Assembly: GCA_017415105.1 (NCBI GenBank)
Contig: JAFQJD010000033.1
Location: forward strand, 1-59,459
Source of the DNA: Clostridia bacterium
Lineage (GTDB): Bacteria; Bacillota; Clostridia; UBA1381
Direction: 5' to 3'
Length of the DNA stretch: 59,459 bases
Part shown: positions 48,055 through 59,279 of the stretch, in pieces
Layout of the letters: each line of letters begins with the position of its first letter
Position numbering within the stretch: the first letter of the stretch is position 1
Made by a program: the position numbers and the translations under genes
The notes under the pieces: model-generated
The model's input: only the letters and a program-made list of their open reading frames with translations
Database searches by the model: none
Told to the model about the DNA's origin: nothing

Positions 48055-49227
48055 ATGAAAGAAATGCAATTAAAATATGGCTGTAACCCAAATCAGGTAC
48101 CGTCAAGAGTATACTTAAAAGATGGTGAGCTTCCGTTTGAGGTATTATGCGGACGTCCGGGATACATAAACTTACTTGATGCACTTAACGGCTGGCAGCT
48201 CGTATCAGAGCTCAAAAAGGCTACAGGTTTACCTGCGGCAACGTCGTTTAAGCACGTATCACCTGCCGGTGCTGCTGTTGGTCTGCCGTTAACAGATACA
48301 TTAAAGAAGATATACTTTGTTGATGATGTTGAGCTTACACCGATGGCTAATGCTTATGCAAGAGCAAGAGGTGCTGACAGAATGTCATCATTCGGTGATT
48401 TTATCGCACTTTCTGATGAATGTGACAAAGCAACCGCACTTCTTATAAAGAAAGAAGTTTCAGACGGTATTATTGCACCGTCATATTCAGATGAAGCTCT
48501 TGAAATATTAAAGGCTAAAAAGAACGGTAACTACTGTGTTCTGAAGATTGATCCGGCATATAAGCCCAACCCGATAGAGTGCAAGGAAGTATTCGGCATA
48601 ACATTTGAGCAGGGACGTAACGAGCTTCCGATAAATGATGATTTACTTGCAGACATCGTTACAGACAACAAAGATATGCCCGAGAGTGCAAAACGTGATT
48701 TGTTGATTTCTCTTATTACACTTAAATATACACAGTCAAACAGTGTATGCTACGTTAAGGACGGTCAGGCAATCGGTATCGGTGCGGGTCAGCAGTCAAG
48801 AATCCACTGCACACGCCTTGCAGGTAATAAAGCGGATATATGGTGGCTTCGTCAGGCACCGCAGGTTTTAAATCTTCAGTTTGTTGACGGTATTCGCCGA
48901 GCAGACAGAGATAATACTATTGATGTTTATATTTCAGACGAATATGAGGACGTATTAAAGGACGGAGTATGGCAGACGCTGTTTAAGATTAAGCCGGAGC
49001 CGTTTACAAAGGCAGAACAGAAAGAATGGCTTAAAAAGAACTCTGATGTTGCATTGGGTTCAGATGCATTCTTCCCATTTGGCGACAACATTGAACGTGC
49101 ATATAAGTCAGGTGTTAAGTACATAGCACAGCCGGGCGGTTCTGTTCGTGATGACAATGTTATTGAAACCTGCAACAAATATAATATGGCAATGAGCTTT
49201 ACAAAAATCCGCTTGTTCCACCACTAA
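48055..49227 (+). CDS. purH: Phosphoribosylaminoimidazolecarboxamide formyltransferase, stand-alone
   Basis: 390 residues equivalent to the AICAR transformylase half of PurH only: LKYGCNPNQVPSRVY, the catalytic TSFKHVSPAGAAVG (Lys-His), RGADRMSSFGDF, LKYTQSNSVCYVKDGQAIGIGAGQQSR, and the C-terminal QPGGSVRDDNVI. It formylates AICAR from 10-formyl-THF. There is no MGS-like cyclohydrolase domain; that activity is supplied by the preceding PurO-like gene. AAAGGA precedes the ATG. Confidence 0.93.
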   Translation: MKEMQLKYGCNPNQVPSRVYLKDGELPFEVLCGRPGYINLLDALNGWQLVSELKKATGLPAATSFKHVSPAGAAVGLPLTDTLKKIYFVDDVELTPMANAYARARGADRMSSFGDFIALSDECDKATALLIKKEVSDGIIAPSYSDEALEILKAKKNGNYCVLKIDPAYKPNPIECKEVFGITFEQGRNELPINDDLLADIVTDNKDMPESAKRDLLISLITLKYTQSNSVCYVKDGQAIGIGAGQQSRIHCTRLAGNKADIWWLRQAPQVLNLQFVDGIRRADRDNTIDVYISDEYEDVLKDGVWQTLFKIKPEPFTKAEQKEWLKKNSDVALGSDAFFPFGDNIERAYKSGVKYIAQPGGSVRDDNVIETCNKYNMAMSFTKIRLFHH

Positions 49228-51792: not shown

Positions 51793-52245
51793 TTACTGAT
51801 AATTTTTATAGACACTATTTATAAATACATTCAAAAAATTTCTTGCATCGTTTTCAATGAAAATCACGAGCTCATTATAATCTTTTTCATATTCATAGTA
51901 ATACTGCATTTCTTCATCTGAAATTGTTTCTTTAATTTTCTTTAAAAAATTCCGTATCTCTTTTTCCATACGGAAAAACACTTTGTTTTTCATTAAAAGT
52001 TCAGACTTTCTTTCAGGTTTTATGACACCAAGAACGGCACACATAAGTTTATGTTCAAGCAATTTACTTGTCTTCTCACGCAAATTTTCAAATACACTCC
52101 AAAGCTTTTTATCATTTATACACGAGCGAAGATAATTTGACGAAAGTTCAAAAGTTCTCACTTTTTCTCCGAATTCTTCGCACTGAAATCTCATTTCTCT
52201 GTATATGAGCATCCCGATAGTTCCTGTTAATTCAAAAGCATCCAT
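51793..52245 (-). CDS. Hypothetical helical protein behind an RNA attenuator
   Basis: 150 residues, not recognised. Almost entirely helical and charged (FGEKVRTFELSSNYLRSC, EKEIRNFLKKIKETISDEE, YYYEYEKDYNELVIFIEND), with no signal peptide or membrane segment; a four-helix-bundle-like fold is plausible. GGGAGAAAGAAT precedes the ATG, which lies only 15 bases after the T run of the upstream terminator, so its expression depends on read-through of that structure. Confidence 0.65.
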   Translation of the reverse strand: MDAFELTGTIGMLIYREMRFQCEEFGEKVRTFELSSNYLRSCINDKKLWSVFENLREKTSKLLEHKLMCAVLGVIKPERKSELLMKNKVFFRMEKEIRNFLKKIKETISDEEMQYYYEYEKDYNELVIFIENDARNFLNVFINSVYKNYQ

Positions 52246-56729: not shown

Positions 56730-59279
56730 ATGAAACAGATAGTTACAGGCATACTCGCCCATGTCGATTCGGGCAAAACAACGCTTTCTGAAGCAATGCT
56801 TTATAAAAGCGGTACAATCCGTTCACACGGCAGAGTCGACCACGGCAACGCATTTTTAGATACAAACGAAATAGAACGCGAAAAAGGTATTACTATATTT
56901 TCAAAACAGGCGATTATGACATTTTCTGATACCTCTCTCACCCTTCTTGACACGCCCGGACATATTGATTTTTCTACCGAGACCGAGCGTACTCTTGGTG
57001 TGCTTGATTATTGTATTCTTGTTATAAGCGGTACTGACGGTGTACAGAGCCATACGCAGACGCTATGGAAGCTTCTTGAGCGATATAATGTTCCGACCTT
57101 TATTTTCGTTAATAAAATGGATATTTCTCATATTGAAAAATCTGAAATAATCGCCGATATAAGAAAGTACCTTTCAGAAAACTGCGTTGAGTTATCTGAT
57201 ACTGATTCTCTTGTACTGTGTGATGAAAGTATTATGGATGAATATCTGAATACTGACAGTGTTTCAGATATATCTATAACTAACGCAATCGCAAACCGAA
57301 CGGTATTTCCGTGCTTTTTCGGTGCGGCACTCAAAATGGACGGTGTTGAAGAGTTTTTATCGGCACTTGACAGATACACAAAAATGCCCACTGCTGTTTC
57401 AGAGTTTGGTGCAAAGGTATATAAAATTTCACACGATGCTGACGGTAAACGCCTTACACACATCAAAATCACCGGCGGTACTCTAAAATCAAAATCACAG
57501 CTTGAAATAAGAAATGATGACGGAACAAATGAAACAGAAAAAGTTGACACATTACGAATATACTCGGGCGAAAAATACACAATGACCGATTGTGCTACGC
57601 AGGGTATGGTATGTGCAGTAACAGGACTTACAAAAACCGTTGCCGGTATGGGACTCGGTTTTGAGTGCAATACAGAAAAGCCCGTACTCGAACCTGTTCT
57701 CACATACAAGCTTGAAATACTTGATAACACAGATGTTCACACAGCACTTACCAAGTTACGTATTTTAGAACAGGAAGATCCTCAGCTTCGTATAATCTGG
57801 AATGAGATTTTACGTGAAATACATCTTCAGCTTATGGGTGAGGTTCAGATTGAGGTGCTACGCAGAATTATTTCGGAACGGTTTGATATGAAAACAGATT
57901 TTTCAGAAGGTGCTATCTCCTACCGTGAAACGATTGCAGACACGGTTGAGGGTGTCGGACATTTTGAGCCGTTACGTCATTACAGCGAAGTACATCTTAT
58001 ACTCGAACCCGGCAAACGTGGCAGTGGCGTCGTTATTAAATCAGACTGCAGTGAAGATTTGCTTGATAAGAACTGGCAAAGACTTATTCTTACACATATT
58101 GCCGAAAAGACACATACAGGAGTTCTTACCAACTCACCTATAACTGATATTAAAATAACTCTTGTTTCCGGTAAGGCACACAAGAAGCATACCGAAGGCG
58201 GAGATTTCCGTCAGGCAACCTACCGTGCAATCCGTCAGGGGCTTATGCAGGCAGAAAGTGTATTACTTGAGCCGTATTACAGCTTCAGGCTTGAAATCCC
58301 GACCGAAAGTGTCGGACGTGCAATGACAGATTTGCAACAAATGTGTGCTGAATTTTCTGCACCCGAGCTAAAAGATGAAATGAGCATAATTAAAGGCACA
58401 GCACCGGTCAGTACCATGCGTGGATATGCATCAGAAATTACAGCATATACCTCCGGCAAAGGTAAGCTTTTGACGACACTCAAAGGCTATGAACCATGTC
58501 ATAATTCTGATGAGGTAATAGCTGATGCCGGATATAACCCCGACAGTGACACACTTAATCCGTCCGGCAGTGTTTTCTGTGCACACGGTGCAGGATTTAA
58601 TGTCCCATGGAACGAGGTCGAGGACTATATGCACCTTGAAAGTGTGCTCAAGTCCGATAGAGAGGAAGCACATAATAATACACGTGTAAGCGAATACGTT
58701 AACACTGTCATAAACGACGAGGAGCTTTTACGGATTTTTGAAAAGACGTATGGTCCTGTTAAGGTGAAATCCTATACAGCCATGCAAAAGCGAAAATCCC
58801 CTGCCCCAAAACCTGCAAAGTATGCAAAGCCCAGGCATATTTACGATGGTCCGGTCTATGTGCTTGTTGACGGTTATAATATCATATTTGCGTGGGACGA
58901 GTTAAAAGAGATTGCAAAAGAAAGCCTTGATGCCGCACGCGAAATATTGGTTAATCGACTGTGCAACTACAAAGGCTTTACTGAATGCAATCTGATACTT
59001 GTCTTTGATGCATACAAGGTAAAAGGCGGTGTCGGCTCTGTTGAACATATAAATGGCATTGACGTTGTATATACCAAAGAAGCAGAAACTGCCGATGCGT
59101 ATATCGAAAAAGTAACACACGAGCTTACAAAAAAGCACCGTGTTCGTGTTGCAACCTCGGACGGTCTTGAACAGCTTATAATTCTCGGCAGCGGTGCACA
59201 ACGTGTACCTGCATCAGAGTTTTTAAAGGAAGTAACGGAGACGGAAAATAAGATAAGGGAATTTATAAGGAATATGTGA
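56730..59279 (+). CDS. TetM/EF-G-like ribosomal GTPase fused to a YacP/Rae1-type NYN nuclease domain
   Basis: 849 residues. Residues 1-660 follow the Tet(M)/EF-G plan: G1 AHVDSGKTT, switch II LDTPGHIDFSTE, G4 NKMD, domain II, then domains III-V with EVQIEVLRRIISERF and GSVFCAHGAGFNVPWNEVEDYMHLE. After a basic linker (about 690-705), residues 708-849 are a NYN/YacP domain: YVLVDGYNIIFAWDEL, LILVFDAYKVKGG, KEAETADAYIEK and VATSDGLEQ contain the acidic catalytic residues. YacP (Rae1) cleaves mRNA in the ribosomal A site. Fusion to an A-site-targeting GTPase suggests a ribosome-directed nuclease. Tandem terminators follow. Confidence 0.9.
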   Translation: MKQIVTGILAHVDSGKTTLSEAMLYKSGTIRSHGRVDHGNAFLDTNEIEREKGITIFSKQAIMTFSDTSLTLLDTPGHIDFSTETERTLGVLDYCILVISGTDGVQSHTQTLWKLLERYNVPTFIFVNKMDISHIEKSEIIADIRKYLSENCVELSDTDSLVLCDESIMDEYLNTDSVSDISITNAIANRTVFPCFFGAALKMDGVEEFLSALDRYTKMPTAVSEFGAKVYKISHDADGKRLTHIKITGGTLKSKSQLEIRNDDGTNETEKVDTLRIYSGEKYTMTDCATQGMVCAVTGLTKTVAGMGLGFECNTEKPVLEPVLTYKLEILDNTDVHTALTKLRILEQEDPQLRIIWNEILREIHLQLMGEVQIEVLRRIISERFDMKTDFSEGAISYRETIADTVEGVGHFEPLRHYSEVHLILEPGKRGSGVVIKSDCSEDLLDKNWQRLILTHIAEKTHTGVLTNSPITDIKITLVSGKAHKKHTEGGDFRQATYRAIRQGLMQAESVLLEPYYSFRLEIPTESVGRAMTDLQQMCAEFSAPELKDEMSIIKGTAPVSTMRGYASEITAYTSGKGKLLTTLKGYEPCHNSDEVIADAGYNPDSDTLNPSGSVFCAHGAGFNVPWNEVEDYMHLESVLKSDREEAHNNTRVSEYVNTVINDEELLRIFEKTYGPVKVKSYTAMQKRKSPAPKPAKYAKPRHIYDGPVYVLVDGYNIIFAWDELKEIAKESLDAAREILVNRLCNYKGFTECNLILVFDAYKVKGGVGSVEHINGIDVVYTKEAETADAYIEKVTHELTKKHRVRVATSDGLEQLIILGSGAQRVPASEFLKEVTETENKIREFIRNM

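Follow-up and report, generated by a model that had tools for sequence, protein, structure and literature searches.

A translational GTPase fused to a Rae1-type nuclease replaces stand-alone Rae1 in Clostridia

Introduction

In bacteria, one set of factors usually binds stalled ribosomes and a separate set cuts their messenger RNA (mRNA). Domain IV of EF-G and of the tetracycline-resistance (Tet) proteins reaches the decoding region of the ribosome. Here we describe a gene that joins an EF-G-type GTPase to a Rae1-type NYN nuclease domain in one chain. It lies in a 59,459-nucleotide stretch of DNA from a Clostridia bacterium (assembly GCA_017415105.1, contig JAFQJD010000033.1), hereafter the window. 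Rae1 attacks mRNA in the ribosomal A site, according to the consulted sections of PMC12320835 and PMC6613710; those of PMC10100781 propose the same, and those of PMC12320835 add that cleavage frees the A site for transfer-messenger RNA (tmRNA). The consulted sections of PMC4342817 describe domain-IV loops with which Tet proteins dislodge the drug.

The architecture itself is already in print. In the part of Atkinson 2015 (PMC4342817) consulted here, Tet proteins from ten Clostridiales are reported to have gained an RNase domain of the YacP-like NYN type, possibly as a new resistance mechanism. These fusions share the architecture of the window protein and very probably belong to the same family. 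That text, however, reads them as Tet proteins, and the replacement of Rae1, the loss of its tail and a placement outside the Tet proteins do not figure in the part consulted. The evolutionary logic appears to be new: replacement of Rae1 by a fusion was not found in the literature searched, which covered the key Rae1 papers incompletely.

Like Rae1/YacP of Bacillus subtilis (PDB 5mq8 and 5mq9; Pfam PF05991), the window protein has an NYN domain with four acidic residues and the DGYN and TSD..EQ motifs, and the fusion fills the place of Rae1 in gene content. Unlike Rae1, it carries this domain at the C-terminus of a GTPase, without the terminal element that holds residues 164 and R166, and its gene stands outside the mrnC-rlmB-rae1-sigH locus.

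The fusion replaces separate rae1

Across a sample of 291 Clostridia genomes, we found the fusion in 106. In 99 of these the gene is complete or almost so, including the incompletely covered G070, G081 and G125, and it is broken or cut in 7 (G221, G051, G139, G215, G224, G131 and G180); G133 has two fusions. A preliminary description of the window, made from its letters alone, had raised the question of whether fusion genomes lack a stand-alone yacP, and all of them do: a separate NYN_YacP gene occurs in 0 of the 106 fusion genomes versus 84 of the 185 others (83 above the cut-off; that of G248 falls below it). Neither gene is present in 101 of the 291 genomes, and no genome has both. Fisher's test gives 5.5e-21 for this exclusion, 6.6e-21 with 83 separate genes and 8.8e-20 once the 7 broken or cut fusions are left out. 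When genomes are stratified by family, 4.0 separate genes are expected in fusion genomes and 0 are observed (z −3.9), a contrast carried by the four families that hold both states (f22, f23, f27 and f28). The fusion replaces separate rae1.

These counts depend on a few assignments, and the GTPase matches were listed down to about E 3e-70. Where a fusion genome had a single NYN match of unlisted position, the match was taken as the fusion's own NYN domain. Two NYN domains on a contig other than that of the GTPase were counted as fusion fragments: the one in G224 has the linker motif upstream and groups beside a congeneric fused row, and the one in G180 sits in an open frame of 313 residues near a contig start. 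Second NYN matches in G136, G201 and G242 were considered as separate yacP genes and left uncounted, since their 21 bits over 47 model positions fall short of the cut-off. The fusion gene is interrupted by a stop or split between two frames in L042 (G221) and L107 (G051), through either sequencing error or decay.

The chromosomal slot of rae1 tells the same story. We inspected the separate genes in 23 fetched genomes, out of the 84 counted. In 20 of these 23, rae1 lies between rlmB and sigH; two others show sigH only (one at a contig end), and G243 shows neither. The rlmB locus was also fetched from 21 fusion genomes. In 7 of them, rlmB stands beside sigH with no intact rae1; in the other 14, that of the window included, no sigH was found within the flank of about 1.5 kb around rlmB. 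The genus of G025 and G059 is the most informative. All 11 of its genomes were searched: 7 have the fusion only, 4 have separate rae1 only and none has both, and mrnC-rlmB-sigH is kept in all 11. The slot holds an intact rae1 in 4, nothing recognisable in 6 and a decayed remnant in 1. This remnant, in G025 (L121:2269-2717), can be aligned over 477 bases at 68% DNA identity, with 37 gaps; it encodes two protein pieces in different frames and has stops in every frame. G025 looks like a replacement caught half-way.

Architecture of the fusion gene

The fusion gene and its parts, all on the forward strand of the window, are as follows.

56730–59279, +: whole fusion gene, 849 residues; an uninterrupted open reading frame with ATG start and TGA stop
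56742–57380, +: GTPase (G) domain, residues 5–217; Pfam PF00009 (GTP_EFTU), 162 bits
56757–56783, +: G1 motif AHVDSGKTT, within the G domain
56949–56963, +: G3 motif DTPGH, within the G domain
57111–57122, +: G4 motif NKMD, within the G domain
57453–57902, +: EF-G domains II and III, residues 242–391, divergent; PF03144 and PF14492 below cut-off, strands and helices in the model
57912–58253, +: EF-G domain IV, residues 395–508; PF03764 (EFG_IV), 72 bits
58170–58211, +: loop III of domain IV, GKAHKKHTEGGDFR; from alignment with Tet proteins, EF-G and the unfused sister GTPases
58260–58508, +: EF-G domain V, residues 511–593; PF00679 (EFG_C), 67 bits
58497–58640, +: C-terminal tail common to the unfused sister GTPases, residues 590–637; from alignments
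58650–58853, +: linker, residues 641–708; low model confidence at 642–655 and 677–702, helix at 649–674
58716–58757, +: linker motif DEELLRIFEKTYGP, residues 663–676; loose pattern present in 122 of 137 fused proteins
58860–59267, +: NYN/YacP (Rae1) nuclease domain, residues 711–846; PF05991, 162.3 bits against a cut-off of 24.6
58869–59162, +: presumed catalytic acids D714, D760, D789 and D811; from the alignment of fused proteins

The open frame is thus intact, and every motif named in the preliminary description is in place. In an alignment of 56 fusions, which also underlies the other invariant positions given below, D13, K16, T17, H78, N128, K129 and D131 of the G domain do not vary. Domains II and III are recognisable to Pfam under its cut-offs (21.4 against 30.3 bits and 23.1 against 27 bits, respectively). 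The G motifs and the five-domain EF-G fold place the protein in the translational GTPase superfamily (EF2 family). Sequence matches in the PDB divide the chain in the same way, with residues 1–590 matching Tet(O)/Tet(M) and EF-G and residues 711–847 matching B. subtilis YacP (5mq8 and 5mq9; E 3e-27 for the NYN part).

An AlphaFold2 model built from 56 sequences shows an EF-G fold that reaches about residue 606 and is followed by a separate NYN fold (mean predicted local distance difference test score, pLDDT, 80.4; predicted template modelling score, pTM, 0.54); confidence is low at 37–58 and in the two linker stretches listed above. Foldseek and VIA-align superpose residues 1–606 on EF-G structures. 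Because the GTPase fills the list of structural matches and the NYN domain is barely covered there, the identity of the latter rests on sequence.

Database searches bear out a genuine, old fusion. A survey of public genomes returned 588 relatives, of which the best 80 loci were examined; all 80 have the same architecture, full length and open, at 836–898 residues. Carriers include many metagenome-assembled genomes and also isolates (Ruminococcus flavefaciens and Faecalibacterium prausnitzii). Because the architecture recurs in these 80 loci and in 99 of the 291 Clostridia genomes, a chance join or an assembly error is excluded. The preliminary description had allowed that the halves might always prove to be separate genes, or that the acidic residues of the NYN domain might be lost; the halves are fused in 106 of the 291 genomes, and, of the 135 fused proteins compared, 134 or all 135 keep each acid. 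In the closest pair, selection on both halves appears to be purifying: the ratios of nonsynonymous to synonymous substitution rates (dN/dS) are about 0.07 and 0.11, with synonymous sites near saturation. For most of the 9 further pairs dN/dS had no defined value.

The nuclease domain lacks the C-terminal element of Rae1

The score against PF05991 and the acidic active-site residues both assign the domain to the NYN_YacP family. D714, D760 and D789 are present in 135 of 135 fused proteins, as are DG(Y/F)N, TAD and Q815, and D811 is present in 134. What differs is the end of the domain. The window NYN domain matches positions 1–138 of the 166 in the profile, and the last ~28 positions, which correspond to real sequence in stand-alone Rae1, are absent. 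After R825, separate proteins continue for 50–54 residues (21 rows), against a median of 26 in fused proteins (135 rows). The basic element at this end, matched by the regular expression LEK.RR, is found in 19 of 23 separate proteins versus 2 of 137 fused ones; two more separate proteins have LEEIRR or LENIRR by eye, and L094 and L097 are without it. Over their last 40 residues, separate proteins have a median net charge of +5 and fused proteins one of −2.

Alignment with B. subtilis Rae1 places residue 164 (Trp in 5mq8, Leu in 5mq9) and R166 inside this element, and the window protein lacks the element together with these residues. According to the consulted sections of PMC6613710, selection for suppressors of a B. 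subtilis efp mutant yielded R166P as well as rae1 disruptions, and the authors group R166P with loss-of-function alleles. The separate genes from genomes that also have an unfused sister GTPase keep the element in 7 of 7 cases (L080, L082, L084, L088, L090 and L096 by pattern, L086 by eye), which links its loss to covalent fusion rather than to a GTPase being encoded in the genome. Most simply, the element would be the ribosome-docking part of Rae1, made redundant by the GTPase. The proposal of the preliminary description that the GTPase delivers the nuclease is plausible, and this loss from the fused form lends it indirect support.

The phylogeny of the nuclease half (142 columns, 200 bootstrap trees) is less simple than that of the GTPase, and its bearing is weighed in the Discussion. 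A single clade of fused NYN domains is not rejected by the approximately unbiased test on these columns (p 0.30). The separate gene L088 (G243), which has no rlmB or sigH nearby and keeps the Rae1 element, may represent a donor lineage or a secondary separation.

Placement of the GTPase half

We placed the GTPase half in a tree built on 592 columns from 57 of 85 rows, comprising 32 fused, 15 unfused and 10 Tet-like proteins. The 32 fused proteins form one clade (98/98) that sits beside the 15 unfused GTPases (92/71), and the two together split from the 10 Tet-like proteins at 100/100, with 1.55 changes per column on the branch between them. Family models agree with this placement. The protein scores 415.6 bits against a cut-off of 775 on the Tet model NCBIfam NF012153 and 274.7 bits against a cut-off of 659.4 on the EF-G model TIGR00484, and among the best 25 of 34 NCBIfam rows only a generic small GTP-binding domain exceeds its own cut-off. 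Two further EF-G matches over the cut-off are present in the window's genome besides the fusion.

Loop III of domain IV separates the groups as well. In the fused and unfused clade it typically reads G(R/K)AH.KHTEGGDFR, with exceptions in L040 and L043, the most divergent rows; in the 56 aligned fusions H484, K486, H487, T488 and G490–R494 are invariant. In Tet(M)/Tet(O)-like rows from these genomes it reads YYSPVSTPADF, which we take to be the Tet drug-dislodging loop and residues, and more distant Tet-like rows vary. The window protein has GKAHKKHTEGGDFR in place of a Tet-type loop, and the window genome's own EF-G has SYHEVDSSEMAF. The GTPase half is built on the EF-G/Tet chassis but, because it falls in a separate clade and has a different loop III, is not a Tet protein. 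The 'TetM-like' label of the preliminary description therefore holds for the fold and fails for the family, on both the diagnostic loop and the clade. With Tet(M) and Tet(O) the protein shares the five-domain EF-G-type fold, the length and the G motifs, and these are the best solved sequence relatives of residues 1–590; it differs from them in its separate clade on a long branch, its loop III, its C-terminal tail and the added RNase.

The unfused sisters are proteins of about 640–725 residues with 40–47% identity to the GTPase half, and they share with the fusion the loop III pattern and an SVFC tail. They differ from it in stopping where the fusion linker starts, without an NYN domain, and in never occurring alongside it: among the matches listed, down to about E 3e-70, an unfused GTPase is found in 16 of the 291 Clostridia genomes, comprising 0 of the 106 fusion genomes versus 16 of the 185 others (p 7.8e-4). 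Separate rae1 is also present in 10 of these 16 genomes, at other genomic places. Plasmids of Ligilactobacillus salivarius carry an unfused GTPase annotated as TetM/TetW/TetO/TetS, with about 48% similarity and an end at residue 637; by similarity, it would belong with the non-Tet clade.

Tail and linker

The unfused sisters end just past the shared tail (SVFC..G, ..H), where the linker of the fusion begins. Within tail residues 590–635 (58497–58634), C590 and C617 are invariant and H619 and H635 nearly so; these Cys and His residues are a possible metal site or ribosome contact. The linker spans about 70 residues and is mostly poorly conserved, except for the motif D(K/E)EL..IFE(R/K)TYGP on a predicted helix, which is degenerate in one fused lineage. 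We considered whether this motif is a docking motif common to other proteins and rejected the idea, as its DNA pattern occurs once in the window's own genome, in the fusion itself.

Genomic neighbourhood

We clustered the neighbouring open reading frames of the 106 fusion loci, with flanks of up to about 6 kb and many shorter. The commonest cluster, which looks like a common transporter family, occurs in 22 of the 106 loci on mixed sides and strands, and no other occurs in more than 10. Neighbourhood was therefore rejected as a functional clue, there being no widely conserved neighbour among these loci. The same holds for tmcAL, which the preliminary description had taken as a sign of a role in translation quality: it is near the fusion in 4 of the 106 loci only, the window included.

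Plasmid and phage collections each contain two records with at least 80% cover of the fusion. The Monoglobus 'plasmid 12' that carries the fusion also carries secA. Phage record MT835563 (L245, MT835563.1) is an unverified 'Bacteriophage sp.' faecal scaffold with bacterial genes beside the fusion, and is probably a mislabelled bacterial contig; phage record MT835514 has no annotation. The copy on a 252-kb plasmid of Agathobacter rectalis may be real. We rejected a mobile or phage origin on account of secA on the Monoglobus replicon and the bacterial genes on MT835563; transfer of the fusion between Clostridia could still have occurred. A search with the PADLOC anti-phage models returned no matching family at E 0.001.

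Two other frames of the window deserve mention. At 48055–49227, a 390-residue PurH-like protein matches positions 75–311 only of the AICARFT/IMPCHase profile. At 51793–52245 on the reverse strand, a 150-residue open reading frame with no Pfam match lies between NUDIX and polysaccharide deacetylase genes.

Discussion

We consider it fairly probable that the fusion is a GTPase-delivered Rae1, a single chain that cuts the A-site mRNA of stalled ribosomes in place of stand-alone Rae1. To judge from the fold and the invariant G motifs, a ribosome with an empty or obstructed A site would first be bound at its factor site by the EF-G-type half with GTP. Domain IV, which carries the loop specific to this clade, may then probe or clear the decoding region and depart after GTP hydrolysis. 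On its tether of about 70 residues, most of them flexible, the NYN domain would move into the vacated A site and, by analogy with Rae1, cut the codon there. The truncated message and its ribosome would pass to rescue by tmRNA, the gene for which is present in the window's genome. The two steps are expected to be sequential because the 30S A site should have no room for domain IV together with a Rae1-like domain; alternatively, the halves may act on neighbouring ribosomes, and a linker of this length could permit either. A more ambitious form of the proposal, whose chances we put a little short of even, is that the fusion is a one-chain bacterial no-go decay factor. The GTPase would sense the stall and open the A site by hydrolysis, the tethered endonuclease would cut, and this gated form would have replaced a free, self-docking Rae1, with the unfused sister acting as a general stalled-ribosome factor.

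Several observations weigh against GTPase-delivered cleavage. The packing of the domains in the model is unreliable (pTM 0.54), and the literature searched held no experiments or biochemistry on any member of the fusion family. The plain Fisher value overstates the evidence for replacement because the genomes are related, and the function is dispensable, as 101 of the 291 genomes are without either gene. Some fused lineages keep a long tail with a degenerate motif, which indicates that the element was lost gradually, and the loss of the tail could be mere erosion of a protein end. In the NYN tree, a single fused clade appears in 0% of the 200 bootstraps, the best tree needs 4 changes, at least 2 of them forced by starred branches, and the separate gene L088 nests among fused NYN domains at 96/92.

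The main rival, which we hold to be rather unlikely, is that fusion serves co-expression only: two activities of the same pathway act independently on a flexible tether, in a fixed ratio and with no GTP-dependent delivery. The long, mostly poorly conserved linker with its low-confidence stretches would suit such an arrangement, as would the 10 of 16 unfused-GTPase genomes in which a separate rae1 elsewhere shows that the functions can coexist unlinked. However, mechanical dependence is suggested by the conserved linker motif and by the disappearance of the Rae1 element from fused proteins, and the fusion excludes the unfused GTPase as well as the free nuclease (0/106 versus 16/185).

A role in antibiotic resistance, proposed in the consulted part of PMC4342817, would have a Tet protein and an RNase protect or reprogram drug-bound ribosomes. 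The fold, Tet(O) and Tet(M) as best solved sequence relatives, and the TetM/TetW/TetO/TetS labels that NCBI gives to one fusion (Agathobacter rectalis) and to unfused relatives all invite this view. We nevertheless find it improbable: the Tet model gives 415.6 of the 775 bits, the protein lies outside the Tet clade and its loop III is without the Tet sequence, at least 5 of the 106 fusion genomes (G048, G152, G026, G282 and G035) also carry a Tet-like protein, the neighbours in the window are of housekeeping type, and the plasmid and phage matches of at least 80% cover include a secA-bearing replicon and an unverified scaffold with bacterial genes. Moreover, what the fusion replaces is a housekeeping gene. 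PIN/NYN folds cut many kinds of RNA, and the delivered nuclease might instead cleave ribosomal RNA or A-site transfer RNA during growth arrest, hibernation or a response to phage. This, too, seems very improbable, given that in both gene content and synteny the fusion replaces Rae1, an mRNA nuclease, that it retains the residues shared with Rae1, and that neither a PADLOC match nor a neighbour in more than 22 of the 106 loci was found.

That the fusion has displaced free Rae1 in about a third of the sampled Clostridia (106 of 291), common gut commensals among them, suggests that binding the stalled ribosome and cutting its message belong together. With 7 genomes that carry the fusion and 4 that keep the separate gene, the genus of G025 and G059 offers a natural experiment ready for use. 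The finding also suggests a purpose for the C-terminal element of Rae1 and points to a role for a little-known clade of GTPases that is now partly annotated as tetracycline resistance, and that may produce false resistance calls in gut metagenomes.

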